From: Neckera pumila
Taxonomy: Eukaryota; Streptophyta; Bryopsida; Hypnales; Neckeraceae
DNA length: 64,000 nucleotides
Assembly: GCA_963969595.1 (NCBI GenBank)
Contig: OZ018410.1
Span: 28,090,913 to 28,154,912 of the forward strand
Direction of reading: 5' to 3'
The translations under genes and the position numbers were made by a program. Positions 12,246-58,662 of this stretch are shown here, piece by piece. The notes under the pieces were generated by a model. The model did not search any database, was not told the origin of the DNA, and was given only the letters and a program-made list of their open reading frames with translations. Each line of letters begins with the position of its first letter. The stretch's first letter is position 1.

Positions 12246-14095
12246 TTATTTGTGTGCACTTGGTCCACCGATTGGACTCATTGGAGGCGGTGAGGTATAC
12301 TGCAACGCCGTATCCACCATGGCACTTGCAACAGGCGTTGTCACTTCCTCTGATAAGGTTGGCGACAGAAAAGGTCCTTCCAAGATGGAAATCATCCGTT
12401 GATAAATGTAATGTAGTCCTTCATTTGTCTGAGAGAATCGAACGTTGTCCCTATTATGATAACATCCATCACCATCCGGGACAAAGCTCATTTGATCCAA
12501 TTGGCTGAATGCTGACAACGCTGACATTGACTTCGTTCGTGTTGTTGTATCTGCACTTTCTCCCACGCCTCCTTCAATTTGTTCCGGTTCCACGTTGTCC
12601 ATCTCATCAATTTCTTCTGTAACAACAAAATCCGGATCTTGTTCCACTTCCATCAAGTCTGCTTGGTCCCCACGGGCGTCACTGACTGCATTAATGTCAC
12701 AAGAACCTAAACTTTGGCCAGCATTTGGTAATCTGTCAGAGTGTGTTCGCTCGGCATCACTCTCATCTTCATTTGTTGATGAGGCTCCCGAATCAACTGC
12801 TACAGCTTTCCCTTTCCGCCTTCCCCGTTTAGTCACTTGAAGTCTCTTCTTCATTAGAGGAGTCCCTGAATGACCGCGGTAGTCTTTCAACTCTACCACG
12901 TGGCACACCTCCATCTGTTTCAGAAACATCGGGACTAGGCAAGCTCTCTTCTGTAGTCAACACTTGTGAGGGTCTGCGTTCGACAGCCATACTTACACTG
13001 TTTACCATCACCAACTTCTCTCCATACATCGATTGCAAACTGTCGTATACAAATTGCGTTTTGATCGACACACCTTCCATGATGATAACATCATTGTCCA
13101 CATATCCTGTCTCCAAAATTCCTAGCACTGCCATCGTTATGCCCAATATTACCAACCCCAATTCCGCGGCAGATACATTTGTACCAATCTTTTCAACTCC
13201 ATTGGTGTCCTCTCAAACTTGTCTTGCGCTCGAGGCATCACTTCTGTACTCCAAAACTCTTGAAATATAACATGTAAGCCGTCCGTACTGCTAGGAAGGC
13301 TTTCCATGAATCCACTTTCCTTGGGATAATTCATGATGATGACAATGCCACTAACGGGTTGTACACCGTGCTGTCGTTGCTTGCCATCACGTAGATCATG
13401 TATGTATGGGGACATTGTTTCTGCATGAAATATTCAGGAACCTTGGAGCACGTGGCAACTCTCTGGCAACGCCATCCTCGACTCTATCGCTTCGTCAAAA
13501 GATACGCCTGACGAAAAAAGAAACACGACATTTTAACAAAAAATGCAAGACATCCAGTTCTTGAGTTGCTGCACAACTTTGCTGTAATCTTTGTTCGACC
13601 ATGGGATGTCCTCCCCTTGCAAACCTCTACATCTACAATCAAAAATCCATAAACATGGTTTGCCAAGTTCAATGTATTCTTCCTCAAAGAACCCTTCTCT
13701 ACATCTCACGTGAAATGAAGCTTCACGCTCTTTGTATTGCACTACAGAGACTGCAACTTACCAATTTCAACGAGCATTTGATACATCCTCAACGTCTCAA
13801 CCGTATCCCGCATAACCTTTGCGACCCGTTCGGATATCCATAAAATGTTGCCTAACGAAAGTTGGGACAACATTCTCTAAACTGCTGAGCATTTGAACCG
13901 TCGTCACTACAGGAAAACACCACAAGGTCTTTGTGTCATTATCCAATGTTTTCCCCATCAAGATGAACTGCCTTCCTCCTAAATTTCCATACTTGCTTGC
14001 ATCGATGGAGAAGAAATCATCCATGGATGATGGATTTTCATCCCCTGTTTCTACCATAAGAAACCGAATTTGGTTTCTGATCGCATAGGGAAACT
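12246..14095 (-). pseudogene. 3' part of a decayed coding region split by the 12-kb element
   Basis: Coding-like blocks lie on the minus strand: 14095-13800 (contains MDDFFSIDASKYGNLGGRQF and HFMDIRTGRKG), 13742-13533 (CREGFFEEEYIELGKPCLW), 13415-13149 (VSGIVIIMNYPKESGFMESL), 13161-12829 and 12929-12246. The last is a 227-residue acidic, low-complexity tail rich in E, D, S and T. The blocks are in different frames; introns and frameshifts cannot be told apart. The family is not recognised. The sequence looks like transposon-derived or captured coding DNA. Its upstream part resumes beyond the inserted element at 26241-27570, so the two pieces belonged to one gene. Confidence 0.6.
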
Positions 14096-14101
14096 TAGTA
14101 G

Positions 14102-14165
14102 TGTGAGCGGAGAGCGGAGAGCGGAGAGCAGAGAGCGGAGAGCAGAGAGCAGAGTTTGGAAAGCA
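14102..14165 (+). repeat. Left terminal inverted repeat of the 12-kb element
   Basis: About nine units of GCGGAGA or GCAGAGA in tandem. The array is the inverted counterpart of 26174-26234. Unit drift (GCGGAGA, GCAGAGA) is present in both arms. Confidence 0.85.
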
Positions 14166-14199
14166 GAGAATCAAATTTTTGTAATCAATTTTGACAAAA

Positions 14200-14390
14200 A
14201 GAGTGCCTATTACCGTGGAATCTAGAATTATTTTAAGCCAAATTTGTTAAAAGGGTACCCCAATTTTGTGGAATTTCAAAAAACATTTCACGAGATTTTT
14301 TAAAAGATACCCCAATACCGTGGATCTTCGAAAAATATTTCTCAAGATTTTAGGAAATGCACCCCAATTTTGTGGAATTCTTACATCTAA
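14200..14390 (+). repeat. Left subterminal repeats of the 12-kb element
   Basis: Four short repeats of the form ACC(CCAATT)TTGTGGAAT or TACCGTGGAAT start near 14211, 14259, 14307 and 14359, about 50 bp apart. The inverse form ATTCCACGGT-ATAGGTCA occurs twice near the right end (about 25932 and 26048). Subterminal repeats of this sort are typical transposase-binding sites; that role is inferred. Confidence 0.65.
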
Positions 14391-14651
14391 TTAAATCTAG
14401 TAGCAAATAAAACCTTAAAGGCGTGGTACACTGAATTTCTAATTAAAGACTTTGTAAAATTGGTTTTAGGTAGTGTAAATATGCAATTAGGGCTGACGTC
14501 ATCAAAAGAGGCTTACAATCAAACAAAAATCCAAGAAAAAATCCAAGGAGACTTGCAAGGATACATGTAAATATAACCAAAACCCAACTCATATAAAATC
14601 CAAATGAATATAAAGCATAGGAATTTAGGTCATGAAATCCAAAAAGCTCCA

Positions 14652-17600
14652 TCAACGGCTAGAACTACCACTATCCTCGCCTTGCTTCGCCTCTAGATCT
14701 ATGTAATCCAAGACACGCTTATTGAAACTACGTGCACGAGGAGGGGGTGGTGATAGTGCCTCCGCAAATTGATGCGCAATTCCACTAGCATATGAAGAGA
14801 GCTCAAATGCCTTAGGAGGACTTGCAAACATGTCCGTAGTGAGGACATGAATCGGACTCTCCCTTGGAACTCTGAACAGTCAAGAAAAATAAATAAATAA
14901 GTAGAAAAAAGAAACAAAGAATGGAGAAGAAGAAATTGCAAACAAACAAAGAAAAATGCAAAAAACAAACTTACGCACAGAGCAAATCCAAGTTGCGCTT
15001 TGCCATCTTCTGAGGAGGCGGAGCAAAAACGGACCCTCGCGGTCGGGCAACCTGACGAGGAGTAGTCTCTGGGTCAGGGTCTCGCATGGAGAGGAGGATG
15101 GCGTCGAAGATGTCCAAATCCGCCTCAAGAGCCACAATATGGCGCTGAAGTGCACGGCACGCAATAATGGAACCACCTAAATCATTTAGAATCAAATTGT
15201 GAGAAGTTGTAATACAAAAAAATAAAGTAGTGGGAAGAGGAAGATTGAAAATCAAAGAGGTTGAAAACAAACCTAGACCACATTGCCAATCCATCACAAT
15301 GTCATCCTTGTCGGTGAGGGCAGAAAAAAGGATGGAATAAAACTCGTGACGTTTCTCACGAGCACCTCTCCAGGGCATGCCATCCTCCCTTATAGCCTGA
15401 TTCTTCTCATCCGTGAAACTGTTGAGCCAACCATCCCTCTGGAGGTTGTAACCCATCTTATCAAAAGCTGTGTTCCGTATCTTAAGAACAGAATTAACCC
15501 GAACTAACACTTTCATGAAGAACTTGCGAGTCTGAAAAAATGAACTCAAATGTGTTAGTATCCATAAATCCACAAAACTCAATTGAATTTGAGATAGAGT
15601 AGAGGGAGAAAAACTTACTACTCCGGTAGGAACCATGGGCGACTGAAGGTCCAGGTCATTCATGCCAAACCAATCTTCAGCCACGTAGAAGTTCATAGTG
15701 TGTGCCCAGTTGTGGATATCCCTCGATATATCAGGATTAGCAGCATGAGTGAAGACAAGAATGCCGTTGTCATGGAGGTTGGCATCTGCAAAGGCAAATA
15801 GAACCTCAAAGTATGAAGTAGACCGCCTGTTCCAAGTTGGAACATCATCTAAGGAGGTAGAGATCCGTGGCACACGCAAGTTCTTGGGCACATCTGCAAA
15901 GAGAAGATCGATGCCCGTGTGAACCTTTTCCTTGGCATTGGATCGAATACGACCTGCTCCAACCTACACAGAGAAATCATTGTGAAAACTTGAAGAAATA
16001 AGAGAAATTAAATCTTAGAAATAAGAATGAATGCAATGGAAAGAGAAATTGTATATAAACCTTAGTTAGGAACTCTTGAATGCGAGTGTAGGCTGAATGG
16101 CGAATTCCGTTGTTCATAAGCTGTTCAATGACATCCACCATGTCCACATTCTCAATCGGGGTGAGCGTAGAAGGCTTCTCTGAGGAAGTGGCTGAAGTAT
16201 CTGGTGCAATTGCCTTTCGCTTTCGCGGCTCAAAGGGGATGGTGATGTCGCTTTGAGAAGGAGCGGGGGCTGGGTTGGCAGGAGCAATGGAAGGGGTGAA
16301 GGATGGAGTAGAGGAGGGAGCAACGGAGGGACTTCCAGCGACTGTAGTGTCGGGAGCAGAAGAAGGAGGTGCTGAACCCTTGGAAGCAGAGCGAAGGGAC
16401 CTACGGGGTTGAGAAGGCTGGGTACCTGAGGCTGTGCCAACTAACTTGCCCTTTCTGCCCTTGGACACGTTTACTGGCTTAGTCGCCTTCTCCTTCCCTT
16501 TCTCCGTCGTCTCCGTTGGTAGAAGCTCCAAGTCAGAAGGATGATCAAGCACCGGAGTTGTAGCAATCAATGAAGAGTGAAGTGCTACCTCAGAGAGGGG
16601 GATAAAACCCCTAGAACAATTAATATACCAACCACAAGCCTTGAGATGGGGATCTAGGTACTTGGCAACCTGTGTCTCCGTATACATGAATTGGGTAGAC
16701 TCCAAATTCACCCAGTCTTCCAAGTAAGGTGGTAGAAACGATGTAGAAAAAGCTTGCTTGGGAACAAGTTCTTGGAAGATGTACTTGAAATATAAGGCAA
16801 AGATTAGTAAGTGAAAAGTAGAAAGAGGATACGAATAGCAAAGAAAAGGTGCAAGATGGATGCAAACCTGTAAATCACACGTTGTACAATCTGGCGACCA
16901 TCAAACTCATTTAGGTCAGAGGCTTTGAAGAATCTTGGATCTGCATTATCGTCAAAGAACTGCTCAAAGGCTGTGTCCAATAGAAAGATCCTCCAGCGGT
17001 CAACAAACTCCGCAGGCCGTAATATACCCACGGAGACATTCCAATGAATGGGTCGAGTAAAGCTTGACTCCATGGAAGCAAATTCCTCTACCACAGCATG
17101 CTCTAGCTGCATTACCTCAAGTAGAAAGTAAGAATTCCAAAGTCAAAATGGTACAAAACAAATTGAAGAAGGGGAGAGTAGTTAGAAAATGGACCTGAGC
17201 CCAAAAAGACGCTTTGTTTAGCCAAATTTCAAGAACCTTCTCCTTAAGAGGCACTATGGAGGGGAACTTGTTACCGCCACAAACAGTAGGGGAGGAATTC
17301 CACCACCGGAGCCAGGCCGTCTTGAAGCGAGGTTGGACGTTAGCTGTGGCAATCTTATGGAGCTTTTCAATTGTCATGTCGGGGACGGTGTTGGTGGAGA
17401 AGTGCCGATCAATCTAGAGACAAGATCCATGGTTAAAAATATGAAAAGGAATGTTGAAGTGGAATGCGACAAAATTGAATAAGAGAAAAGGGAGAGGATA
17501 ACCTCGTCAAAGAATGCTGGCTCGTGATGCGAGTTTGCTACGGCAATGTACTTCTCAAAGCTCTTTATACGAATAGACTTTCTAGCCTTCTCTTCTGCTG

Positions 17601-20600
17601 AGGTCATGGCCTTCCAAATACCCACAGCAGTCCTCTGATTCACTGGTGTTGCATCCTTGTAAGCTAGAGCGGCAACATCAACAGCAGCCGAGATTTCCTT
17701 CTGGTGAGTAGAAATGTTAGCCCATGCAAATTGCAAGAGTAACAACCAATAAGAAAAGCAAATAGATGAAGGATTACCTTGTAGAGGAAGGAAACGAAGA
17801 CGTCCATCGTGAGAGGATACCATGTGGAAACCTTCGACTTGGCGGTAGCACATGCCTGATAATCGTCCTTGGAAATCAAGTCCGCAAATGCCTCCAAAGG
17901 CAAGGCACCAAAAGTGCGGATGCGAAGGAGTTTTGCTGGCACGCTAGACTTGACGTGGTCGTTTTTAGTTGACCTATGCAAAAGATTGGCACGCGTAAAG
18001 CAAACAAAATTTGAAGGTGACAAAATCATGAAGAAACCAAAAAGGGGGCAGAACTTACCAGTTAACATCGTTCATGGCGTTCATGAGAACACCACTGTTC
18101 TTTCGCGCATCCAAGGCAATGCAGTGCGGAGAAATATGCCAGGACTCCTCCGTAGGATGAAACTTATTAATATGGCGGTACCAAGCTGTGAGACGATGGT
18201 TGCCCTCCCAAACAAAGAGCATCTTGCCAACCATATGAGCAAGGTCATCATCTTGCGCCATGAGTGAGTCGAACGGCTCACTAGTAGTCTTCCAGAGTGG
18301 ACTCCACCTAGTGACGATATCCTCGGTGACGTCGACAACCTCGTCCTTGTTGTTGTAGATCGACACGTAAAGGACGCGGTCACCATCACGGTAGCCAGTG
18401 ACAAATTCATTCTCCAATCGTTGAACATCAACCTCATTAATTGGACGCACAAGAGGCAAGGCATGCATTTGGCAAAGGGGAATGCAAAGGCGGGACTTAT
18501 TTGTGGGCCGAATTCGAAGGCGATTAATAACTGTAGTTGAGTCGGCCTTCTGCTGCGCTTGAAGTTGATTCTCTTCTATGTCGGGATCAGCCTTCTCCTC
18601 TGGTTCGGCATAACGTAGTAGCGGAGTTGGAGACTAAAACCAACACAAGGTTTATTATTGAGCAGATCAAATACCAGAACAATTAAATAATCAAATACGC
18701 AATGTTTATAAATGGAGTTTGAGTACAATGATTCTAGATGCAAATGCATATAGAAAGAATAGCATGCTATTCAAAATTGGATGTACATTAAGGAGCACTA
18801 ATAGTAAACAATGTGATGGATAGAGATCCATCACTGAATCAAGGAGCATACAAGTGCAGAAACTAAATGGGTATAATTCCAAACCAATTACCTCTTGTCC
18901 CCCAGTAGCAATGTCATTGGTCATTGCTACAGATGTTGGCATAGGTGGCTCCTGAGCTAAGACAGCTTGAGACAAAACAATCTCCAAAGGTTGCAAAAGG
19001 TCCATCACTCCAGACTCCTGTCAAAAGGAGGCATGAATTAGAATAGAGATACACACTAGTGGAGAACCCGGCGGAACCGCGGGGTTCATTAAGAGTGTCT
19101 CAAATGGAATTGAAAAACTAGTATTTTCATTGAAATGGCAACAGCAACTTTGAAAAAAGGCAAAATTACAAAAAAAAGTTGGAATTTCCTAATACTCTTT
19201 GTAGTCCACTTAGAATTGATCTACAATAGAACAAATAAGCACAAAACTATTGAAAATGAACAAAAAAAAGCAAGATAGGGCAGCCCAAAGGAACCTTGTG
19301 AAAACTTAAGGTTTTTGAAAGAGTAATCAGAATTCAAAAATTAAAAACAAATGAAGAAAGGGCATGGCCTGCCGGAACCCCGCGGTTCTGCCGTGTTCCT
19401 CCAAATGGTGCCCGAATCCATTGTGCATACAAATGAAACCCTAAGTGCAAGGAATCCTAAATTCTGTTTGCGGTATATGTGGGAAGTAAGCTTGGTTGTC
19501 ACTATGCGTAGCCAAATTAGACAAACCCGCGGATCCGCGAGGTTCCTCCAATTAATGCCTCAACCAACTACAAACATGATTGAACACATGAAACCCTAAC
19601 TGCAAAGAATTTAAAAATTGCTTGCATTCAAAAAACTCTGCACTGTAGCCCCTGAAAAGCTGTAATGCAGCGTTTGTTAGCAATCAATACTGCTCGGCCG
19701 ATTGTAAGCACGGCCAACAGTGGCACTTGTAAGCACCGCGCGGCCTGAAAATTGTGCGGCCAACAGTATGCACGGCTGAATTGGTTGAATCCCGCGATTC
19801 CGCGGGGTTCCCCTAGGTGGTGCCGCAACCTTTCCTAAAACCCTAACTGTGAGTCATTGCAAAACTGCGCTTCTGTAGAATTACAGCATGAAGGAAGGCG
19901 CCTCAAAAAACACCCGCATGCAAGCTAAACCCGAACTGCACAGCACAAATTTTCAAAGCAAAGAAGTTCGGACTAACCTCTAGAGCCGCGCACAAAGCAT
20001 TGCCGCTTGATTCCACAGCAACGCCATCCGTCTCTCCATCGCTCGCCATTGTTCTCCGTTGATAAAAAATGCCCTTCTTTGCTACTCGTCTCCCTTCTTC
20101 TACGTCGTCTTCATTCTCTTCCTCTCCTTCCTGTCCATCCACTTCATCCATCTTTTCATCCTCTGTCTACAAAAACAGCCCAAAATAGCAATTTTTTCTT
20201 TAGCAATTTTACCAAAAACTTACTATATTTAGTAAATTTTTCTTCGCCCCATAGTCTCCCCGAGGAGACGTCGAGACAGTTGGGGAAATTTTTTCCAAAA
20301 CTAAAGGAAAACGGGGTTGACAGGTCATAAGTTTGGCCACTTAGGATAGAGACCGTGACAAAGGGATAAATAAGTTATCCACCGTAGGTATCACAGCCTA
20401 TTTTTACCTGAAATTGATCCTATTGCGTTGTGACGGGGGGCCCGTCACAACACAACATGTCGTGATGTCACGATAGACCACCTTGCCTTCACCTCCACTC
20501 ATGCATGCATAAGATCAAATGGATAAGAATTCCACTTCTATAAATAAAATTGAAGAAGGAGGACCGGTGGAGGTAACCCGGCAGAACCGCGGGGTTTCCT

Positions 20601-21199
20601 CACCTTGCCCTCCACGGCTCTAGTAACCCTAATGAACTCTATGCGTGACTAGTGCAAAGCTGTGCAAAGACTTACATTACAACCGCGAAGCCACGGATAG
20701 CACCCATGGAGTTGCAAATTGCAATCGTGAAGCGCATGAGGAATAGAAGCCCGTACGCAACAAAGGAAACCCGCGCATTCACTAAAATTAAAAAAACCAA
20801 TAATGCCATTGGCTAATATAACAATTGAGTTCAACTTACCATGTTGACAAAGTCCTCCCTTCTTTCTTCATTTGAATCAGTCTGGTTTGAATTGGTACGC
20901 TGCTCGCTCTCAGCCATTGCTGGTGAGGGTGAACTTCTGCTCTTCACTTCTTCCTGGATCGGTACAAGGTTAAGAACCCGAATCATACACCTTGCTCTCC
21001 AAGCACCACCTACTTCCTCCTCAACTGGCTTGCGTAAGTCTGAAGGTGACCCTCGTCCCTCTATGCTCAATAGCTCCTTCTTTTTCAACTTGTTTCGCCT
21101 CTTCTGCTTCGAGTTGGTAAAAGTCGTGCCGCCTCTTCTTTTCTTGCGCTTCCGCGTTGGATCAATCGCAGAGACTATATTGTGGCCTGATTCCTTCAT
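14652..21199 (-). CDS. DNA N4/N6-methylase-like protein encoded by the 12-kb element
   Basis: Thirteen exons: 21199-20840, 20166-19978, 19017-18892, 18633-18059, 17973-17778, 17700-17503, 17413-17195, 17115-16868, 16783-16061, 15963-15619, 15531-15273, 15176-14975 and 14871-14652 (TGA 14654-14652). All junctions keep phase except the one after 16868, where the donor is uncertain by a few bases. The product is about 1,285 residues. The N-terminus is basic then acidic (KRKKRR, EEENEDDVEE). A middle region has no recognised domain. A P/S/T-rich linker follows near 800-890. From about 944 the order is that of beta-class N4/N6 methylases: a motif IV position IDLLFADVPKNL, then a helix/strand core, then a motif I position MDWQCGLGGSIIAC..R..VALEAD. 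The usual (D/N/S)PP(Y/W) reads DVPK, so activity is doubtful. No in-frame stop was found, unlike its partner gene. Confidence 0.75.
19065..20600. repeat. Five copies of a GC-rich quasi-palindrome in introns of the methylase-like gene
   Basis: Copies lie at 19065-19087, 19371-19397, 19524-19549, 19788-19813 and 20575-20600. Each has an AACCC(C)GCGG..CCGCGGGGTTCC pattern. Several are followed by TCC, then TGGTGCC-CAACC and (A)AACCCTAA-TGCAA, so the unit is part of a diverged repeat of about 150 bp. Four copies sit in intron 2 and one in intron 1. The GC content stands out against the AT-rich element. Confidence 0.8.
20426..20450. repeat. Perfect 11-bp inverted repeat with a GGG loop
   Basis: GTTGTGACGGG, three G, then CCCGTCACAAC, in intron 1 of the methylase-like gene. 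A related TGACG / CGTCA core follows in the next 30 bp (CGTGATGTCACG). It could be a protein-binding site; function is not known. Confidence 0.7.
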
Positions 21200-21922
21200 G
21201 TGTGCGTCTTGCCAACCCTACAATGCCCGCACACCACCCCTGCACTCTCACAACATCAAACGCCTCTCACAAAAGATGATCCCTCACTAAACTTTTTTTG
21301 TCTACATAATGCTACTGCATGCGGTTTAGGGTTTTCCGGTGTCTAATAGCTGTACATTATAACATCACCATTAAGAAGATATTAAACCAATTATAAATTA
21401 GGCTATTAAACGGTGTCCTCCAAAAAACAATTGGCGTCTGCAAGATTTTCTTCTAGATTGACCGAGCTCTTGATTACTCTGTTCCACTATTAATATGGCA
21501 ACTATTCCAATTGTAGGGCAAGATTGTCTGTCATTGCAGAAAGTTCATGATGTATTTGGTGCCTCCGCTCTAATTCAAGAAATTGGTGTTCATCAATTCT
21601 ACCTAACTATTAAAGCTACCTGCTTTAGATGATGCCAACGGCTTATTAATGACTGTGCCATCTACAATATTTCTAATTCCTTCTAATTCTTTGTCAGAAT
21701 CATAATTATTATGGGATCTATCAATAGTGAATGATCAATTATTCATAGATAATTCAAAATGCTTAAACTCTGAGTTGCTCTTCCCTATTGCCTCTCATTG
21801 CAAACCTTTAATTTCTTTCTCATTGTTGGTCATCAAACTCTCCTTCTATCTATTTGCTTTCTTGTGATTATTGATGGCATTGCCCTCTGTAGTCTATGCT
21901 TAGCTTTTCCTTCTCTTTGTCA
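21200..21922. promoter_or_regulatory. Shared divergent promoter of the 12-kb element
   Basis: These 720 bp separate the start codons of the minus-strand methylase-like gene (21199) and the plus-strand transposase (21923). No other gene fits here, so both promoters must lie in it. The arrangement would allow joint expression of the two element genes. No specific motif can be assigned with confidence. Confidence 0.6.
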
Positions 21923-24900
21923 ATGGCTTCATCTTCCATTGTTTCTGCAATGGCTGAGATGGCTGAGCTCCGTGCGCATGGCCTTGGAGTCTCCATTCTC
22001 ATTCCTATAGGTGAAGATGGATTTGCATCAGTCTCCGCCCTTCACCTTAGCATCAGATTCTCTTTTCAGGTGAATACCATTTGGGTTGAACGTGAGATTT
22101 TTGATCCTGCTACATCTTTGCTTTCCGTAACCATGCGTGAGAATTTTAGGCTTGCCAAAAATGGATCAATGGTCTGGGAGTTGGGCGCTGGCAAGTATAG
22201 GGTCTATGGGCTCACTGAATCTCAAATGGGGGTAACGACTGAAATCCTTACCCCATTCCAATCGTCTACTTACACGTTGAACACCCCTCCGTTAGTGAGA
22301 GTTAAGAGTGAGCCTGGTGTGCAGCTAATCATTGATCTATCTGATTCCTCCAATGAAGATGCACTCACTCACCCTACTCCTCTTGTGAATCCTATTTGTT
22401 TGTCCAAGACTCCCACATTTGTCACCCCGTCTCTCTTTTGCCCTGAACCTTCAAATCCTCAAGTACCCTCTTCATCCAAATCTTCTAATTGCATTGTTCA
22501 ATGTCTACGTAGACTAGGTTCTATGCCCGGTAGTAAAAACATCCTCAAGAAGTTAGATTACGATAGATTGAAAATTGAAGAAGTCAATTACCTTCCCCCA
22601 CGTTTTGATGGTACTCAAATGTTTGTCCTTCCTCCGGTTGGAGCCTCGTCTTCTCATACCAAAGCCAAATCCATGGAGGGCATGGACAAGCGATATGATG
22701 GCCATGTCTGGACCAAGACTCAAACCACCAACATTAGCAACAACCTTGGTCTTGTATTCCGCTCATCAACTTGCGTTGGCCACCTTCAGTGCCAGAATCA
22801 AAACTGCGACTACCTTCAACGTACTCATTGAACCTCCACGGTGAACGATACCGACTTCCAAGGCTTTACCAAGGATCTCTTTGCCATTGATGGTCCCCCG
22901 CCAACCAACTCCACTCTTGTCTGCAGGATTTGCAAGGAGCCACCCAAGTGCCTTGAACTTTGCGATGCTAAGATCTTCTACGTCCACAGTAAAGACTCTT
23001 CTCAGCGAGGTTGCATTCATATCGGCACCCATTGGCACCCCGTCAAGGTTGGTGATTGCAGAGATAGCCGCAAGCGCATCGATAGACTTATTGAGGAGCA
23101 CGTTGAGAGGATGCCCCAAGCCACGCATAGCAAAATTGTCCTTGAGGCCAGCAAAGAACTTGTAGGTGAGTTCCTCCTTTGTGATGATAATGATGCACAT
23201 CAACTTCTTTCATTAGAAGAACTAGAGCCCGTCTTTGATCGCTGCAAGGAGTTGAATTCTCCTCACCTCCGCAATAAGGTTACGACCTTCAAGTACATGC
23301 GTAGATTAGGAGTCATGGATGGCATTGCTAAACTTAGGGGAGTTAGCACTTGGGCCTACGTTCAGCGGAATCAATTTCCAGGCCAAGGTAATGAAGCGGA
23401 TAAAGTCTTCGTCTTCAAGATGTCCGAGGTTGGACCCGGTAGTGGAGTCGATTTGGTTCATCGCATGCAACCAGGTGGAGATCTTGAGCATGCGTGGATC
23501 ATGTTTGATCATGTCAAGCGCGTCTCCAAATGGACCACCTTGGCCTGCCATATCTACGATGGGACGTACCAACGCATCATGACCATTGCTTGTTGTGACT
23601 TCCAATCTGAAGACAAAGATGCTCAAATGCTTTTTTGGCATAACCTCAACCATGTCATGGCTCGGCACGGAATCCCAAAGCCATACTTCAAAGGATTCAT
23701 GGCGGATAGTGCACAAGCCAATTGGAATGCCTTGCGCATCGTCTACGGCTCCGGAAATCCCAAGGTTCCCATCGAAGGGCGCGAGAGGACGTGCTACTTC
23801 CACTGGACCCAATCCTTAGAGAAGCACACCAAGCTATATATCAAGCACGACTTGCAAGACCAACACAAGCGTCTTTGCCTCCAGTACCGCGACGCCTCGT
23901 CTATGCTGGAGGCAGACACAAGGTACCTTGCTATCAAAGCATGGTGGGCATCATCAAATTGCACCTCTGAGGATGGATTAAGGCATCTTCAGCTTTAGTT
24001 GGCCTTTTGGCACTTCCGCTATCGACAATGGGGTGGCTTCATGGAACTGGTATGTTTGTTGACTTATCAGTTATCACTTGATGTTTTACTCTTTACTTCT
24101 TTCCTAACCTTCTCAGTTTTTTATGCAACCTTTATTTTGTACAGGAGAAAATCATGATGGCTGAGGGTTTTGCAGAGATGCCTAATTGCAACCTTGCCGA
24201 ATCCATTCACAACAAATGGCTTCAAGCGTCCGGCAACAAGGGTGGCGATCTCTATGTGGCAACTGTAGACGATTATGTTCGAGCATTCCTCCAAGTTGTG
24301 GCTTACCATCAATTTCTGAAAGGTGGCGTTGGCGGAGATGGCCCTAGCAAAGAAGAACTCAAGCTTAGATGCGCTCAACGTTGGGCTCAGCGAACTGGCG
24401 ATCCGCTGGTGCTGCAAAAGGTTCTCCTTGACATGCCCGGCAGTGACAGATTCTGCACACGCAATCCACACCTCGAAGGCGGCGAGGTCTTCGGATCACA
24501 GAAGCGCAAACCTGACACTCCTATTGGAGCCGATGAAGATTCTCACCGCCCCGACACTGTCAATTTCTCTCGCCCGCATGTTAGTCAGAGAAATATAAGA
24601 TCTCATCCTACACCTCTACCTACAATTGTCGAGGAGTCCTCCCTGTTTGTGCAAGAGGTGGCGCCTCCTTCACCTATTGGATTGGATGTCCGTCGCATCA
24701 CAGCCATTCAAGAATCTAAAGTTGACGAGAAGCTGTGGCATATTGCTCGCCTTCCTTGTAATTCTGGAAAGTCTTGTTGGGCTATGCACGCTGTCACTAA
24801 GAAGAAATGTACTGCCAAAATCGTCTCCAATGGCAAGAGCACCCCTGCTCCAACCTACTCCGGATTTTGGAACCATTACTCATTTACAAGACCAAGACCC

Positions 24901-25602
24901 AAGAAGTTCTTCTTCTGCTCAGACGACATTGAGCGTTGTGTGAAAGGCTCGCGTCGCAAGTGGGTGGACAATTTCTCTGCAGACCAGGAAAGACCTCCAA
25001 TTCCTTCCGTGTGGCCTGTGAAGCTTGGCACTAACCTCACTCGCCCGGAGATCTTGAAGCTCGAGAATGCCGGCTTCCAATTGCTACAGAAAGAGCGCAT
25101 AACTCCAACACGACTATTCAACAACTCTGCTCCTCCCCTCGACCTCTCCGGTGTGGATGTTCCACCGAATCCTGACTTTTACCCTGTTTCAAGGCAATCT
25201 AAGTCTATGCGACACTCCATCCACGTACCATCAGCAAAGCAGATGCAGATGGTCGCATCCGCTCATGCAATGCAAAGAACCATCTTGAAGGTAACAATGA
25301 TTCCTCGCCCTAGATTTGGATGTGTTATCAATTTGCAGTCCAAACCTGCTCCAACACAATCAATTTACCAACTTACAGTGAGCTCCCTCCCTGATTGCAC
25401 TTGCCCGGCCTTCAAAGACATGATTACCAAATTTAGCCGCAAACAACATTTGTTTCTACATTGTAAGCATTTATACTTTTTGTTTGTCAAGGTCTCTAAT
25501 TTAGATCCAGAAGTGAACTTGTTCATTCATACCCCAACCTTTAGCTTCAATGAGGTTAAACTCATTCTTGAAGGGGGCCTATTGACACATTCTACCATCT
25601 AG
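21923..25602 (+). pseudogene. MULE-type transposase with N-terminal zinc finger and SWIM finger, two nonsense codons
   Basis: Two exons, 21923-24049 and 24145-25602, join in phase (donor CTG|GTATGT, acceptor TACAG|GAG) for about 1,194 codons. The frame is cut by TGA at 22829-22831 and TAG at 23996-23998. A Cys/His-rich finger of WRKY-GCM type spans the first stop (STCVGHLQCQNQNCDY, then LVCRICKEPPKC). The DDE core follows: HIYDGTYQ, then GFMADSAQANWNALRIVYG, a TCYFHW Cys/His pair, and NCNLAESIHNKW after the intron with the likely catalytic E. Near the C-terminus a SWIM motif reads PDCTCPAF..LHCKHLYF (CxC..CxH). In a MULE this enzyme would cut and rejoin the element ends. The stops imply that this copy is no longer autonomous unless they are read through. 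Confidence 0.85.
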
Positions 25603-26173
25603 ACTCATTGCCAGCCTAGGATTACTTTATCTTCATATGAATGTAGTCATTTGTTGACCTCACAGGTTTTTGCTATCTACTCCCTTGAGAAAAAAAATTT
25701 CGTATTTTATGATTTTTATTCACCACAAGTCACTGGATTACTATAATTGTTGCCATGTGTTTCTCACATTTTCTCACTCTACATGCTAATCTGTAAACCT
25801 TCCAAATACACCAATCTCTTTAATTCCTTCTTGACTTCATCCTCCGCATAAGTTCAATTTTGCGTTTCCCAAGTCTCCAATTAAATCACAAGTTTACAAA
25901 TTCAGACCTTCATTGTGTTTTAGGCCATCAAATTCCACGGTGATAGGTCACAAAAATTAATTCTTTTGAGTTTTTTGGGCCTTAAACTAAATCAAAAGTT
26001 TGGAAATTTAGAAATTTTAGATGCCCATTGATTTTTTTTGCCCTCTAATTCCACGGTAATAGGTCATAAAATTTTTACTAATTCAAGGAAAACCTTGAAT
26101 ATTCTTTAGAATATTCGAATCTATCAATAATAAAATCTAAAAATAATAAAAAAATAACATTTTTTTTTCTTTT

Positions 26174-26234
26174 AGGCCACTCTTTGCTCTCCGCTCTCTG
26201 CTCACCGCTCTCCGCTCTTTGCTCACCGCTCACA
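26174..26234 (-). repeat. Right terminal inverted repeat of the 12-kb element
   Basis: Tandem units of TCTCCGC, TCTCTGC and TCACCGC run to CGCTCACA at 26234. This mirrors the left array at 14102-14165. It is followed at once by TAGTAG (26235-26240). Confidence 0.85.
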
Positions 26235-26240
26235 TAGTAG

Positions 26241-27570
26241 TGTCGTCCATAGTATCGCTGCAAAGCGCACTTTCCATTCACCACATCCTTCGCAGCCATC
26301 TGTTGAACCACACGTACATAGTTTTCCATAGAGATTCTACTCAAGGGTCTCCACCAGGTCTTTTCCATCTTCTTCCTCTTTGGGTTTCCATCCACTGTGA
26401 CATCAAGATTCCGATCTATAGCCATCTTCTTCCACTTATTTTTTGCCTTTTTGCTGAAAAATAGTTTTCTGTCCTCATTATCTTTATTTACCTGCACGAT
26501 GGCCTTATAGAACTCCTCGTCTTCATTTCAAGCATGCCGTGTATAATCCACCATCTTCTTTGACAACTCCCCCAACAATACATGCTTTGATAAGTTCTGA
26601 CTCAAAGGTAACGCACTCGCTGCCATTGTCAACGCTTTCACTCTGTGTGCATCGTCAACCCAACTCGTCCCATATCAGCAACCCGTTTTGCACGATCGGC
26701 AATCCTTCCAGCATCCACATTGGCTACTACAATATGTAACCTATACATTCTTCCTCCCGAGCGAATTTTTGGTTGTCTTGATTCAGAATCCGCTTTTGTG
26801 ATTGTAGTTGGAGCTCTCTCTTCACCTTCACTTGGAAGAGGAGGAAAAATTGGTGGTTCACGTGGTCCAAGAATTTGAGCTACAGTCCTGCCCAATTGTA
26901 GCGGTTCCTACTCAATATTCAGAGGTTCAAATGCTGGTAGCACTGGTTTGCTCCCTTGGTTTAGTACCTCTTCTTGCCTTTCAATTCCATCATCACCGGT
27001 AGATTGAATGCCAACATCAGTAGTCGCAAATTGGAGATGCTGATGATGTGCCCTCGGTGTGCTAGAAACACCCTGCTCATCTGCATCAGTTTCTAATCCC
27101 ACTTCAACATCAGCTCGCTTGCAACTTCGTTCATCCAATGAAACCCAATTCGGATTTATTGGCGCAGCAAGATTTTGATATATTGCATTTGAGTCTTCTG
27201 GATCTCTAGGTGCAGGTTGCTCTCGAGCAACATCTGGATTCATCCTTCGTACTTTTTCAAGGCTACGAATCTTCAGGTATTGATGACGTAATTTGCGTAC
27301 TTGTTCAGGGGTCATCTTTATGAATTTTTGAACTGCTCCCTCTTGTTTCACCTGCAATTCATGAGGCACTTTCTTCCAATGCAAAGCCACGGCTTTCAAG
27401 CTCTGCATTGGAGTGAGACATAAAAGGAGCTCTGGTGGAACAAGAGCCATCATGGATATCTTCTGGAGTTTGTACTTCTCCAAAGTTGTTTCCGTAGTGG
27501 TCACTGACACCGTCAATCTTCCATCAGCGGTGCCCATGAGGCCTTCGATGACTCCATGTGAGGTCCCCAC
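26241..27570 (-). pseudogene. 5' part of the decayed coding region split by the 12-kb element
   Basis: On the minus strand, 27570-26908 encodes 220 residues (contains MTPEQVRKLRHQYLKIRSLE and PINPNWVSLDERSCKR) and ends in an in-frame TAG. The same frame continues to 26638 (RMYRLHIVVANVDAGRIADR) and ends in TGA. A third block (about 26520-26241) in another frame is lysine-rich (KLFFSKKAKNKWKKM, then TWWRPLSRISMENYVRVVQQ) and runs up to the insertion site. At the junction, GRHYY on this side should adjoin KFPYAIRNQIRFLMVE on the other (14095 downward), but the frames differ by one base. The gene was probably already decayed, or was shifted at insertion. The family is not recognised. Confidence 0.6.
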
Positions 27571-27599
27571 TACAGACCAGTAACACTATTCGTCAATTA

Positions 27600-33730: not shown

Positions 33731-34526
33731 TGAGCCGAATACAATTAAGGCTTCTAATAGCAGTACCTGTAGATCCTAATTGACAGGTGCGATGCTTAGG
33801 CCCTAATTTGTTTTTGTTTTTTAAAATGAACACCTTCACTAGAATTCATTCAAGCAACGGGCATTCAGAGTTCAACGTGCATTCCAGAGCTTCTCAATTG
33901 CAAATTTCAAGTAACCGGAGCTTTGAAATATTAGACCTGTATAGATCTAAGGTTTCAGTTGAATCAAGAAAGTGGCTTAGCACTTGACATTTTGCTAAAT
34001 TGACAAAGCATTGGTCGTTTGCTATTATTTGTCTGACGATTTGAACAATTTTGCATACTACAGTTGACCTAGACTAGACTGATTCTGGGAGCCGAATCCT
34101 GTGTCAAGACAAGTCGTTCGACCTACAACTAAACATGGATGTTGGAGTTTAATGGAGCCTTAAAAACAAAACTCACCTTCAACCACAAGGAGCTCCACTT
34201 CAAGTGAGCAAGGTTTTCATTCTAGAGCACCGTCATCCTCTGCAATTCCAGCTTCCAACCTGTCAACTCAATGAACAACAAACTGAAGTCACGGCATCTT
34301 GAAACACACAAAAAACAGAAGGGAGGCAGTCAATAGTGGCAGAGGAGAGGAGCGCTTTGATGACCGTGCAGAGTAATTTACAACCAAGAAGACCAAGGAG
34401 CGAGAGGCGAAGGTGAAAGGGAGCGCCACGTGGAGTGCGTCAGCAACAACGACCTAATAAAGGGGAGACACAAGGCAAAGAAGGTAAAAGTAAAAAAAAC
34501 TTACCTCCGTTACTCCGTTTACATGG

Positions 34527-34740
34527 GAAGTTCTAGTCCCCTTCCCGTTGAACAGTATTTGCTGTCATACCTCGCGAGCGCGCGTGGAGGGTATGACAGC
34601 AAATACTGTTCACTTGAACCCTAAATAGAAAATGCAAACATAGGCATGCGCATGAGAAGTTCTAGTCCCCTTCTCGTTGAACAGTATTTGCTGTCATACC
34701 CTCCGCACGTGCAAAGGGTATGACAGCAAATACTGTTCAC
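34527..34740. repeat. Two tandem hairpins with perfect 23-bp arms
   Basis: Each unit of 129 bp holds AAGTTCTAGTCCCCTT followed by a hairpin. In unit 1 the arms are 34549-34571 and 34590-34612 (18-nt loop). In unit 2 the arms are 34678-34700 and 34717-34739 (16-nt loop). The arm core TGTCATACC / GGTATGACA and all 23 bases match exactly within and between units, while the loops differ. Both units end in CCCTAAATAGA-AATGCAA. Confidence 0.95.
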
Positions 34741-35181
34741 GTCAGCCCTAAATAGAGAATGCAATCTTGAATGCAATCATGTAGTCTTCGTTGAGAGGGA
34801 AAAAACAAGAATTGAAAGAACATGAAGAGAGAAAGCGAACCTGCATAGATCGATCAAACACATCGACGCATCAGCTAAAGCACCAATGGTTCGTCCCGAA
34901 ATTTGTTTCCGCTTTTTTTCGCTTTTGCGAACTGCGCAGGAAACTTGAAATCTTGTCTAGAACCCCAACGTGAGCGCAATTGCGACGTGCGACCAGTTGC
35001 CAAGTAGTACCTAAGGCATGTGAAGCTCTAATTATCAGAAACAACAGTCGCTTGAAGTAATCGAAGTAGACTCTTCATTGTCGAGGGAGAAAATTATGAA
35101 GCTAGAGCATTAGGTTTCTGAAATTCCGCCCCAACGGGATTCCATCCTCATTTTGCGATTTCCATCCAGGTCGAAATTTAA

Positions 35182-36106: not shown

Positions 36107-36610
36107 TTAACAGAAGTCATCTAAGTCTTCATGCAATGAAATCCATCTAAGTTGTGATCCAATGACATTCATCCCACTCGTGATTCAGTTAAATTCATCC
36201 ACCTCAAAATTCAATGAAACCATGCATCTCGTAATTCAATCAAATTCATCCAACTTGTAATTCAATGAAATTCATCTAGCCTGTAAGTGAATGGAAATTG
36301 CCATTTATAATAAGGTAATTGCACCTTAAATCGCACAGTGACGCAATTTGGCTTCATTAAATATGGTTTTTATTATTATTATTATTTTTTGTGGGGTCCC
36401 ATTGGTAGTCAAAAGGGGATTCTAGATTCTCTTAGAATGCAATTTTTGGACACCGTGTGAATAAATTACAAATCTCCAAAATGTTGAGAATAGGTGTACC
36501 CAAAAGCAATCATAGAGTCATATGAACAGCAGGAGTACATTTTAGGCAAGAATATCCACTGTATGCTTTTAGGAACCGTGCGATTTTAGGTGTAGTTACC
36601 TTACAAGTAC

Positions 36611-53899: not shown

Positions 53900-56235
53900 T
53901 CCCTATTCCATCTTCCAAGTCTCGTCCTTTTTCGCCCACGTAAGCTTATTCATCCATCCATCCCGCAGTTGCCTCCGTCCCTCCCCAGACCCGTGCCGCT
54001 GCTGCTAGTGCAGTGTGCTCCTGGCTCGCCATAGCCATCACCTTCTGTGCAAGCTTTGGCCTGCTCGCCACGCCATGGCACCGCCGATCCTGTTCCCTTT
54101 GCGTGTGCTCAGGAATTCAGATCCTCCGTCGCTTTGAGCTGGTCTCAGTGAGGTAAATTTCTGTCGTATGAAATTGTAGAATTTTCGTTCTCGGCGGTGT
54201 TCTGCTAGGGTTTTTTTCTCTCTCGGTTCGATCGAGAGTCGCGGACGGACTCGCTACAGGTTCGTGTCGTGTCGTGTCGTGTCGTGGCATTTCACGTCTT
54301 CGTTTCTGTTCCGGTTCGGATCTTTTTTGGTGTGTATAATGGAAGCGATCGCCCGGGGATTCGATTCGTTTGAGTCGATTTTTGGACTTTTCAAAGGGAT
54401 TTTTAGTCGCCTGCGCACTCTGCGTACTCGGTTGTGGAGGAGAAATCATTGAGAGTGCAGACAGACGGACGGACGGACGGTAATGCAGAGATGACAGGTT
54501 ATCCAGGTGCTGTGGAGTGTCGGAAATGGTGCGTGCGGAGTGATTCTTGACGCTTGTGTCAGTCGTCTTTCCAGTTTCCATTTGTGTGGTCGTTCACGTC
54601 TGTATTGTGCGGTTCGCGTGGAAATGCTTAGTCGATGAAGGTTGTGGCGGATTGTGTGAATCGATTGCTGGTTGAATTCGTTGGAGAGTTTCTGTTTTGG
54701 AGTTCTTTGAATCGACTCTGTTCGTAATTTTCACTGTACGTTGTAGTTCACATGTTCGGGGTGGCGAATTACTCTCTTGTTGCGGCCTCATGATTCTATG
54801 TTTTCGATGTGCATACTGAAAAGTAGTTCTTCAGCAGCTCTATGCAACTCTTTTTGTCAGACTCTATTACTGCAAGACGCGCTACTCTCTATCTGCTGTA
54901 GTTTCTTGTCAAGAAAACAGTTTACTGAGGGGCTTTGGAAAGTGAGCTGCGAACTTTACCCAGAATCGGCAACTGGCTCCACTTTACGACCTGAACAAAT
55001 ATCCCTTTTGACATTTTGAATTGTCATGTTGTTTTGGAGCTTCAAACCGTTTCAGGCAATCCGGATTTCCTTCAAGCGCCGACAGCTTGTCGGTAGTTTC
55101 AGCTTTTCAGTATTTGCGAAAGTGGATCATCTGCGCGGATACTCATGTTTCTTTTGGCCGAGTTAGTTCGGGGTTTCTATGAACTTTGATTGCCCTGGCT
55201 TCGGTCTTTTTATTTTAGACCGTTTAAGTTTTCGTTGTAAGTCGGGTTATTAGGTGAACATTACGCCTTTAGGGTTCACACTTGGTTTTACGACTGTCAG
55301 GTGCTCAACGTCTCTTCTTAAGCAATCAGAAAGGCTAAATTCTTTAATTGAACCGGTTGCTGAGAGTATGGTCCGACCTTGACTGTCTCCTTCTGGCGCT
55401 TGCTCTTGCTGTTATCTCTAACTTTTGATTGCAAATTACATCTATTCTCATCTTCCATCGACTTTCATAACAGAATTTGTTTCGACACAAGACACAAGAA
55501 AATCTGGTGAGGGTACATAGAGATAAAGTTTATTGGAACTTCATTCAATGTTATTACCGCGATAGATATGCTGTCTTTCGTTGAACGTGATCGTCTTCTG
55601 CAGTAATTTTATACGAGATCGAGTCTTCACTTCTAACTGCACCTACCTTCGACGACTAGACATGATTTTAGACGCGGAAAGATTTGGCAGTTGCAAATAT
55701 TGTACTTGAGCTTGGTGTTCTTTAGTGAGACGGATCTTTGTACATTTGGGATATCCAAGCGGTTTAGATTTGGAACTAGGTCTTTTCACCTGATTTGAAA
55801 ATTCAATTTTAGGCCTACAAGCGGAGACAGTGTTTTGAACCTTTTGATAGAAGTCTGGTAGTTGATTATTCTAAAACCCTAAACCCTGGTTGTTTAACTG
55901 GTTATTCAGCGTGTTGCTTCTTATTGTGTTGCTAATGCATTTTGCTTCTGCCTTTGATTTCTTTCATGCTGTACATATCCTTGCACAGGAAGTCGCTTTA
56001 TTGCTCTGCATTGGGAGAAATTTTCTTTTCCTCTATACGTGGATATTATAGCTTGGTGTGAGTATTTTACTGATGAGGACGTTTTCTGACACTGTAGGTG
56101 AGGTGATGAGTGTTGGATCGCTACAGAAAATTGGGTATCAAAGGAGACGAGGAAACGGTTCGCATTTGCAGGAAGGCTTTGTTCGCGGTTTTTGTTACTC
56201 ATGAACTTTGGGGAAGGCTCAAATAAAGTTGCAAG
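53900..56235 (+). promoter_or_regulatory. Promoter and long spliced leader of the LPEAT2-like gene
   Basis: The sequence changes from AT-rich to GC-rich at about 53750. A good donor (GTGAG|GTAAATT) at 54153 and acceptors at about 56098 (CACTGTAG) and 56171 (TTTGCAG) suggest a non-coding first exon near 54000-54152 and a leader intron of about 2 kb. Microsatellites GTGTC (54262-54287) and GACG (54460-54480) lie just after the putative donor. The transcription start is not determined. Confidence 0.5.
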
Positions 56236-58662
56236 ATGAATTGTGATCAGCGGAAGAGACAGGCTGCAGGAACTTTGGGGCACCCCCCAGAAATACGTCT
56301 AAATGAGACTTTTAATCCATATTGCAATGACAGCCAATTTGGTGGAGTGTTCGAGATACTTAAAACTGTGCTCTTGTTGCCGGTGATGGTGGTGCGGGTT
56401 TTAGTTTTTGTGACTACACTTATTTTAGCATACTTGCTTACCAAATTAGCGCTGTTCAGAGCCAAGAATGTGTTGACAAGTCCGTTTCCTCAATGGCGTC
56501 GGTCACTGATGATACCAGTTCGCCTATGTGCTCGGGTGAACCTTTTTGCTTGTGGATTTCAGTGGGTTCATTTGAAAGGAAGGCCTGCTCCACGTCACGA
56601 GGCTCCCATTCTCGTGAGTAATCACGTGACATTCGCGGATGGACTGTTCCTTTTCTTCAAGCATCTGCCAGTTATAGTCACAGCTTATGAGAACCTGAAT
56701 TTGCCAATTGCTGGATCTATTATTAAGGCCATGCAGGCAATTGCTGTTGACCGAGTATCAAGTGCATCCCGTCACCATGCATCCGGCGCAATCAAGCGGA
56801 AAGCTATGTGTAACGACTGGAGTCATATAATGCTTTTTCCTGAGGCCACGACCACGAATGGAAAACTCCTCACGTCCTTTAAAGCGGGGGCCTTTACGCC
56901 CGGTTACCCTGTCCAACCGATTGTTATTCGATATCCACATGTGAATGTGGACCCATGCTGGGTTGCAGAGGGACCTGTTATCTACTGGCTTCTTTTCCGC
57001 CTTATGACCCAGTTCCATAACTTCATGTCGGTATGTTCTTCCCCTATGCTATTTAATGATCTTCTTTTCATTCACTATTACTTCAATCGCCAGATCCACA
57101 CCCTTTTTCATCGTTTGTTGACAACAAACTGATCTTATCAAATGTCCATTTCACTAAATATTCCCTTAGTCTTCATAGTATTCCAGAGCACAGGTTAGTA
57201 TAAGTCGAGCTTTAATAGGTTAGTTCTTGTGAATTAATGAAATGTATTTTTTTAACGATCTTCTCCTGTGAAGAAACGCAGTTGAATGTTGGTGTTGGGG
57301 TCGTTTATTCGAAAGGGTTGTTTCTGTGCATTCTGGTCATGTTTGGTGTACAGCGGCACATAATTAGTTGTAATTAATCGGTCTTGTCTGCAGGTTGAGT
57401 ATCTTCCGGTGATGTATCCTACTTTGGCAGAAACAAGAAACCCTTTTCTTTTCGCAGAACGGGTGCGCCTTACCATGGCACGAGCAATGAACACTTCTGT
57501 GACGCAGCACACATATGAGGATGCTGCCCTGGCGATGGAAGCAGTAAGGTTGAATATTGACAGTGGATCCGCCCTTCTTGAGTTTGGGGAGTTTAAGAAG
57601 ATCGCTCCATTCACAGTCAAGGAGGCTAAGCGATGTTTGAACAAATTCGTGATCATGGACTGCTCGAAAAGGTTGGTACCGGATGGTGCTACCTTACATA
57701 TTGGCAGATTCGATGGCGTATGATTGTCGCCAACACGTGCTTCAACTTCAATTGCATGCTTGACAGCATTGTTGTTGACTCGCTTGAGGACGGGATATTT
57801 GGGTTGTAAGTTCTGACAGGGATGGTACCGCAATTGTTGCAGGGGTGCTGTCACTTACAAGGACTATATCAAATCGGTAAACTTGCCTGATTGTTCCCTT
57901 TTACAGCAGGTGTTCCGGTACTTTGATCGCACAAACAGTGGTCACATCAATTTTCGTCAGGTGCTTCATCTTTCTGAATATTGGAATTCTATTGTACCGT
58001 CTTGCTCTGTAACGACAATGCTTGATATGTAAACAGTATGGTATTCGGTGTCTGTGTTTGGTTTCGCGTTCAGTTGGAAACGTTTTGATCATATTATCTG
58101 TAGGGCACATTACGTATTCTTGATTGGTTCACAGAATGACGAGAGGGTTGTCTTTGTTCCGGTACGACTGTATGATATGTCAGCGCTTATACTCAAAATC
58201 AGTTCTGACATGTTTTGCATGCTGTTATGACGGGGCAGTACGCTGCAGGAATTGCTTTCATTGGCAATCATCCAAGATTCAATGAAGCTGTTGAAGCAAC
58301 TTACAGCTTTTGTGGTGGTGGAGGAGATGATTTGCCAGATGAAGCCATATTGCTGAGGAGCTTGCGTGCACTCGTTCCATCAGTTTCAAAACAACAGGTC
58401 CGATTTTGTTTTAGGTTGTTCTAACATGGCGCAATGCCTGATTTGCCAGTAAACGCGTGAAGGAAAGTATCTACAGTTGTACATATGTATCCGTGCTAAG
58501 CAGATCTGTGTCTCAACTGTTGTGCGGCAGGTTCACTTGCTTTTCGATAAACTTGACGTAAAGAAGGGTGGAATACTTAGGCGAGCTGACTTTGCTAGCT
58601 ATTGCGACGACAACCCTGATTTCCTACTCATTTTTTTGATTGGGAAGCCCAGTCTACTTTGA
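56236..58662 (+). CDS. Lysophospholipid acyltransferase with EF-hands (LPEAT2-type)
   Basis: The enzyme should re-acylate lysophosphatidylethanolamine, and perhaps other lysophospholipids, with acyl-CoA at endomembranes. Five exons join in phase: 56236-57030, 57394-57671, 57843-57960, 58239-58397 and 58531-58662 (TGA 58660-58662). They give 493 residues against about 540 for Arabidopsis LPEAT2. A hydrophobic segment covers about 40-73. Acyltransferase motif I is NHVTFADG (H130, D135). The motif III position reads FPEATTTNGK (201-210), where Ala replaces the usual Gly of PEGT. GYPVQPIVIRYP (223-234) fits motif IV. The C-terminal part has EF-hand loops at about 386-397 (DRTNSGHINF) and 456-467 (DKLDVKKGGI), with a degenerate one between them. 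The family is clear; substrate preference is inferred. Confidence 0.9.

Follow-up and report, generated by a model that had tools for sequence, protein, structure and literature searches.

For most accessory genes of large transposons there is as yet no explanation. Among the closest described cases are Sola1-1_Ec32 of Ectocarpus and the ParB-methylase accessory genes in transposons of green and red algae (PMC12477816), and this ParB plus methylase kind has so far been reported in algal transposons. In Arabidopsis, VANDAL transposons bear VANC, which counters silencing and targets repeats that lie upstream of VANA21 and within introns of VANB21 and VANC21 (PMC5735166), and retrotransposons of charophytes and dinoflagellates carry cytosine methyltransferases (PMC5890265). 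The papers cited in this text were available as excerpts, and our statements about them extend to those excerpts. Here we describe a two-gene DNA transposon of the moss Neckera pumila, located in a 64,000-nucleotide stretch of contig OZ018410.1 (hereafter the window; assembly GCA_963969595.1, positions 28,090,913 to 28,154,912, forward strand). The element encodes a transposase and, on the opposite strand, a second protein that we predict to be methylase-like. Strict pairing over many families and purifying selection show that the second gene is a kept part of the element.

A young family of two-gene transposons

A sequence-only reading of the window had placed a 12.1-kb element at 14102..26234. 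The element is real, but its true span is 14088-26248 (12,161 bp). The same reading had assigned it a MULE-type (Mutator-like element) transposase, and we found a plus-strand gene with one intron, beginning at about 21923, whose product is an RNase H-like DDE transposase of the IS256/Mutator kind, as is characteristic of MULEs. With Pfam MULE models, no family was found at E <= 1 for three window pieces, nor at E <= 5 for P0001, P0005, P0013 and P0048. A CxC...CxH pattern seen by eye in transposase exon 2 and in the contig L001 may be a C-terminal SWIM zinc finger. The second gene, described earlier as having 13 exons and sharing one spacer with the transposase, was borne out as well: it lies divergently on the minus strand across 723 bp. 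In lying within the transposon and being read against the transposase strand, it agrees with the genes for ParB-methylase accessory proteins such as that of Sola1-1_Ec32.

We then searched the genome (339.5 Mb, 18 contigs). The transposase stretch 22000-24000 recurs on the ten contigs C1-C10 in at least 29 copies, counting the window's, that are 97-100% identical, which is beyond chance; diverged pieces were found as well. The underlying DNA search gave 41 rows, and as the best 40 of 251 candidates were scored, the count is a lower bound. For the second gene's methylase end (14975-16783), all 34 candidates were scored, yielding 34 rows at 33 places. In all 29 young copies the second gene stood divergently beside the transposase, at a gap of 5203-5231 bp, and a transposase partner was found at 33 of 33 second-gene places, one of them 14.5 kb away. 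No partner row accompanied the transposase pieces C11:8835770-8841400 and C6:13919161 (88-91%), nor three rows whose DNA identity was 68-69%. Among the last three, C1:44314413 has divergent exon-4 and exon-10 protein matches about 7-10 kb away, and C1:28276790 and C8:23624502 have no exon-4 or exon-10 partner among the matches listed.

The window transposase is broken by two in-frame stops (22829-22831 and 23996-23998), and the transposase is open up to 25500 in two of the eight copies read (L006, L007). Of 20 copies, two (that of the window and L013) have a projected second-gene frame free of internal stops; the other 18 carry stops or frameshifts. Near-identical young copies with mostly broken frames indicate that the family amplified recently and is now decaying. 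The window element is thus one decayed member of a two-gene DNA transposon family of the IS256/Mutator type that amplified recently.

The gene pair across deep divergence

Protein searches of the genome returned 150 matches for exon 4 (best 150 of 450 candidates), 150 for exon 10 (best 150 of 332) and 106 for the transposase core (among the scored rows of 693 candidates); partner counts in this section are among the matches listed. At 86% identity or more, 31 of 32 transposase rows had a divergent exon 4 within 15 kb. The remaining 74 rows were 48-62% identical, except three fragments at 83-84%. An exon-4 row lay within 15 kb of 42 of these 74 distant rows and was divergent in 41 cases; 40 of the 41 divergent partners were themselves distant exon-4 rows, whereas 500 random placements gave 0.27 on average and never more than 2. 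When exon 10 within 20 kb was added, 49 of the 74 were paired, the random control covering exon 4 alone. Furthermore, an exon-10 row followed within 7 kb downstream at 62 of 118 distant exon-4 rows, and at one distant locus, L054, exons 4, 7, 9, 10, 11 and 12 occur in order at 33-61% identity, divergent to the transposase. These observations showed that the transposase and the second gene form a stable unit across deep divergence.

Thus the earlier view of the second gene as a resident part of the element held up, with divergent pairing in 29 of 29 young copies and 40 of 74 distant rows and with the selection described below. Two cases had been named as contrary to it. Transposase-only copies are absent from the young family (29 of 29 paired); a few old fragments and 25 of 74 distant rows have no partner among the matches listed. 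Methylase homologues confined to single-copy host genes were not what we found, all 33 places having a transposase partner.

The exon-4 and exon-10 domains belong to very large genome families (450 and 332 first-look candidates) in which many frames are open. In one uniform group, open frames of 222 and 136 amino acids are separated by about 2.42 kb; for most of its members the matches listed include no transposase partner, and the group may be part of another element.

Selection on both genes

We compared substitution rates with the NG86 method. Between subfamilies, the ratio of nonsynonymous to synonymous substitution (dN/dS) of the second gene was 0.315 (L013 vs L051) and 0.328 (L013 vs L052), at an intron divergence of 21%. 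By region, it was 0.21/0.20 for exon 4, 0.17/0.24 for exons 5-8 and 0.26/0.32 for exons 10-12, and 0.43-0.52 for exons 1-3, 9 and 13. Pairs that reflect decay only (window-L013, window-L017 and L051-L052) gave 0.55-0.58. For the transposase, dN/dS was 0.286-0.302 against L053, with a baseline of 0.61-0.66 between young copies. NG86 ignores transition bias, so the contrast with the decay pairs is the informative part of these values. As dN/dS falls below the decay baseline in both genes, both were selected in the lines that transposed. Collectively, these data showed that both genes are under purifying selection.

These results bear on the origin of the second gene. Mutator-like elements often capture genes (PMC6446971 and PMC12477816, in the excerpts), and the gene could be such a Pack-MULE-style passenger taken from the host. 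The transposase partner at 33 of 33 places, the divergent pairing over 48-62% transposase identity and the purifying selection argue against this, and no single-copy host homologue appeared among the matches listed, at most 150 rows in each of the two protein searches. We therefore rejected host capture, which we consider highly improbable.

Structure and likely identity of the second protein

All 12 introns of the second gene are GT...AG. The exon 8/9 junction was fixed from the 19 other copies (exon 8 end 16868, exon 9 start 16784), all of which share an acceptor from which the window copy departs; an initial gene model with a shifted junction was discarded on this ground. Searching with the full-length protein returned no homologue (0 of 7988 candidates), because the metagenomic relatives are called exon by exon. 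With exons 10-11 as query, 144 metagenomic homologues were found among 214 candidates, and the best 120 of the 144 were used. In some homologues (P0138, P0145 and P0159), exon 11 continues into exon 12 without an intron. A single genome contig matched, L001 (CADCWO010000080.1, 4.1 kb), which carries the transposase alone and is filed under a desert-crust cyanobacterial metagenome-assembled genome; it is probably eukaryotic contamination of that assembly. The viral contigs searched held no homologue.

Motif IV lies in exon 10 and motif I follows in exons 11-12, the order of methylase motifs found in the beta class, as the sequence-only reading had claimed, and the matches over motif I are weak but convergent. 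Exons 10-12 matched CcrM (E 0.0031) and a phage methyltransferase family (E 0.0048) there, and Pfam N6_N4_Mtase at E 0.033, under the family cut-off. The adenine methyltransferase M1.HpyAVI, whose entry names DpnA, was matched by the window at E 0.097, by homologue P0145 at 0.0037 and by the spliced profile at 0.0064. Pfam gave no methylase family in any of 115 members. Motif IV is conserved but not canonical. All 70 homologues read have FAD[V/I]PENL or something close to it there; the catalytic form (D/N/S)PP(Y/F/W) occurs in 0 of 70, DPP[Y/F/W] included, and the distant L054 has DVPE. With D[V/I]PE in place of the canonical motif, catalysis is doubtful.

These motifs also bear on whether the domain could have N6-adenine or N4-cytosine methyltransferase activity and so give the element a permissive mark. 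The motif I matches to M1.HpyAVI (E 0.0037 and 0.0064) and CcrM would suit such an enzyme, and for similar ParB-methylase proteins it has been proposed that they modify the transposon that carries them (PMC12477816, in the excerpt), but motif IV departs from DPP[Y/F/W] throughout the homologues and in L054, and we think an active enzyme unlikely. Judging from its motifs, the second protein appears to be methylase-like; the label of a canonical N6/N4 enzyme is unwarranted and its activity doubtful.

In exon 4 we found a GNHR motif, present in the window and at four of four distant loci. No hidden Markov model or PDB entry matched this exon.

Palindromes and a candidate function

A repeat scan of the window turned up, unprompted, five imperfect copies of the palindrome GAACCCCGCGGWWCCGCGGGGTTC, spread over the first two introns of the second gene. 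The palindrome is kept: counting weak matches, the 20 young copies have 6-7 each, L051 has 6 and L052 has 5. At L054, nine copies of an unrelated palindrome, GGTCTCTCGGGCCCGAGAGACC, precede exon 4, partly in a 285-bp tandem array; the largest palindrome cluster averages 0.2 in the shuffle control of this locus. L056 has two palindromes with a similar core, L057 has four (two repeated and two others; largest cluster 2), and an unbiased count found 0 palindrome clusters at L055. Thus, of five families, two show clear palindrome arrays: the window family and that of L054. The consensus GAACCCCGCGGWWCCGCGGGGTTC was derived from the counted sites themselves, so its control (0.2 expected) flatters it. 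We infer a link between the palindromes and the second protein. Intron 2 also holds three copies of the telobox-like AAACCCTA (window 19436, 19591 and 19838), inside larger direct repeats.

By analogy with VANC, our favoured reading is that the accessory protein binds its own element and protects or marks it against silencing, a candidate function to which we give even chances. From the shared 723-bp spacer, the transposase would be read one way and the 1283-aa accessory protein the other. The accessory protein would recognize its own element, perhaps via the palindromic repeats in introns and spacer, and would methylate the DNA, or occupy it with its methylase-like module, keeping the element from host silencing. 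Expression of the transposase from the unsilenced element would then be possible. The proposal concerns a VANC-like way of working and makes no claim of kinship to VANC.

Alternatively, the accessory protein might act in transposition, as a structural partner of the transposase bound to termini or palindromes, or through methylation that times transposition to replication; Dam has this timing role for some bacterial elements. An obligatory partner would fit the strict pairing and a selection strength equal to that on the transposase, and a structural role would fit the non-canonical motif IV, but the palindromes lie centrally in the element rather than at its ends, and the 25 distant transposase rows without a listed partner do not suit obligatory pairing. 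We regard a role in transposition as possible, if somewhat unlikely.

Several results weigh against the anti-silencing reading. No fetched young copy was seen with both genes open. The methylase matches are weak and restricted to motif I, with best E values of 0.0029-0.0037 among homologue searches; profile A3, which includes read-through introns, matched no PDB entry, of five homologues tried four had no match to a methylase family, and the motif IV variant is shared by all 70 homologues. Exon 4 we take to be ParB-like from its GNHR motif, recognized by eye. In the window spacer an unbiased count gave a largest cluster of just 2, as it did at L056 and L057, and palindrome density outside the element is about equal (29 in 51.8 kb vs 8 inside).

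The anti-silencing reading can be drawn more boldly. A plant lineage of IS256/Mutator-like transposons might be run by a two-gene module of a transposase and a ParB-like/methylase-fold protein that has lost its catalytic motif, reads family-specific palindromes in the spacer as if they were parS sites, and spreads over the element, shielding it from silencing. This fuller picture seems to us improbable. If true, protein and palindromes would have co-evolved family by family, and the VANC strategy would have been invented a second time from bacterial partition and modification parts.

Element ends and features of the window

Left halves of 20 copies and right ends of 19 were compared to map the ends of the element, which are GGGAAACTTAGTAG (14088) and AGTAGTGTCGTCC (26248). 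Among copies, the left consensus is GGGAAACTTAGTAGTGTGAG and the right consensus AGTAGTGT[C/T][A/G]TCC. The inverted terminal heptamer arrays noticed earlier are real: arms 14102-14159 and 26177-26234, 58 nt each, are 83% complementary, giving the terminal inverted repeats expected of a MULE. A 10-bp target duplication, within the 8-11 bp of MULEs, flanks 18 of the 20 copies when a single mismatch is allowed; it is exact in 16 and has one mismatch in L015 and L020. The window copy and L027 (two of the 20 compared) showed no trace of it, perhaps owing to rearrangement. The TAGTAG direct repeat noticed earlier was misread; it was ruled out as a target duplication, because the repeat sits inside both termini that the copies share.

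Minus-strand open frames abut the element on both sides (window 12249-14087 and 26249-27585), as if it had inserted into another coding gene or element. As the window copy has no target duplication, the flanking junction is not readable as a simple insertion. Elsewhere the window has tandem repeats at 34522-34764 (127 bp, 1.9 copies) and 36134-36299 (26 bp, 6.4 copies), and a plus-strand open frame at 56227-57129 that by eye encodes a putative acyltransferase.

Table 1. Coordinates of the element and its parts in the window
Feature	Position	Strand	Remarks
Whole element	14088..26248		12,161 bp; ends common to copies: 20 left ends, 19 other right ends
Left terminus	14088..14159	+	GGGAAACTTAGTAGTGTGAGCGG plus heptamer array (GAGCGGA-like)
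Right terminus	26177..26248	+	inverted heptamer array plus CATAGTAGTGTCGTCC end
Second gene	14652..21199	-	13 exons, 1283 aa by family model; ATG 21199, stop 14652
Second gene, exons 1-7	21199-20840, 20166-19978, 19017-18892, 18633-18059, 17973-17778, 17700-17503, 17413-17195	-	family model
Second gene, exons 8-13	17106-16868, 16784-16061, 15963-15619, 15531-15273, 15176-14975, 14871-14652	-	family model
Exon 4, GNHR-motif domain	18059..18633	-	GNHR motif; ParB-like by motif alone
Exons 10-12, beta-class methylase-like domain	14975..15963	-	motif IV-like ADVPKNL (exon 10); motif I-like DWQCGLGG...RHIVALEAD (exons 11-12)
Imperfect 24-bp palindromes GAACCCCGCGGWWCCGCGGGGTTC	19064, 19375, 19522, 19787, 20574 (range 19064..20597)		second-gene introns 1 and 2; overlapping weak match 19365
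Spacer	21200..21922		723 bp, between two presumed start codons
Transposase gene	21923..25602	+	exon 21923-24049, intron 24050-24144, exon 24145-25602; start presumed, about 21923
Transposase core	22832..23995	+	RNase H-like predicted fold

Comparison with known systems

According to the excerpt of PMC6446971, MuDR/Mutator elements have terminal inverted repeats, 8-11 bp duplications, a DDE transposase and sometimes an antisense second open reading frame, all of which the moss element resembles; they are listed there with no methyltransferase. In our literature search, whose reach was mostly outside subscription papers, no Mutator-like element with such a gene was found. The retrotransposons of charophytes and dinoflagellates are similar in that a transposon bears a DNA methyltransferase gene, but theirs is a C5-cytosine enzyme in a retrotransposon, as the available part of PMC5890265 describes.

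VANDAL is alike in build: a Mutator-type element with a non-transposase gene, repeated motifs both in the accessory gene's introns and in the intergenic stretches, and a motif that varies by family. It differs in that VANC is not described as methylase-like in the excerpt of PMC5735166, and in that anti-silencing was shown for VANC whereas for the moss element we infer it. Sola1-1_Ec32, as far as the excerpt of PMC12477816 describes it, is likewise a large DNA transposon whose accessory protein, some 1100-1300 aa long and encoded against the transposase strand, has ParB-like and N4/N6 methyltransferase-like domains, and whose transposase is often broken. Unlike Sola1-1_Ec32, with which the comparison is by description rather than by sequence, the moss element has an IS256/Mutator-like transposase instead of Sola1, a non-canonical motif IV and a different host. 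The moss element thus has a known kind of partner gene in another transposase lineage, the IS256/Mutator-like one. With dozens of families in one genome, it makes transposon-borne DNA-marking or anti-silencing proteins, and a role for N6-methyladenine and N4-methylcytosine (6mA/4mC) in plants, open to test.

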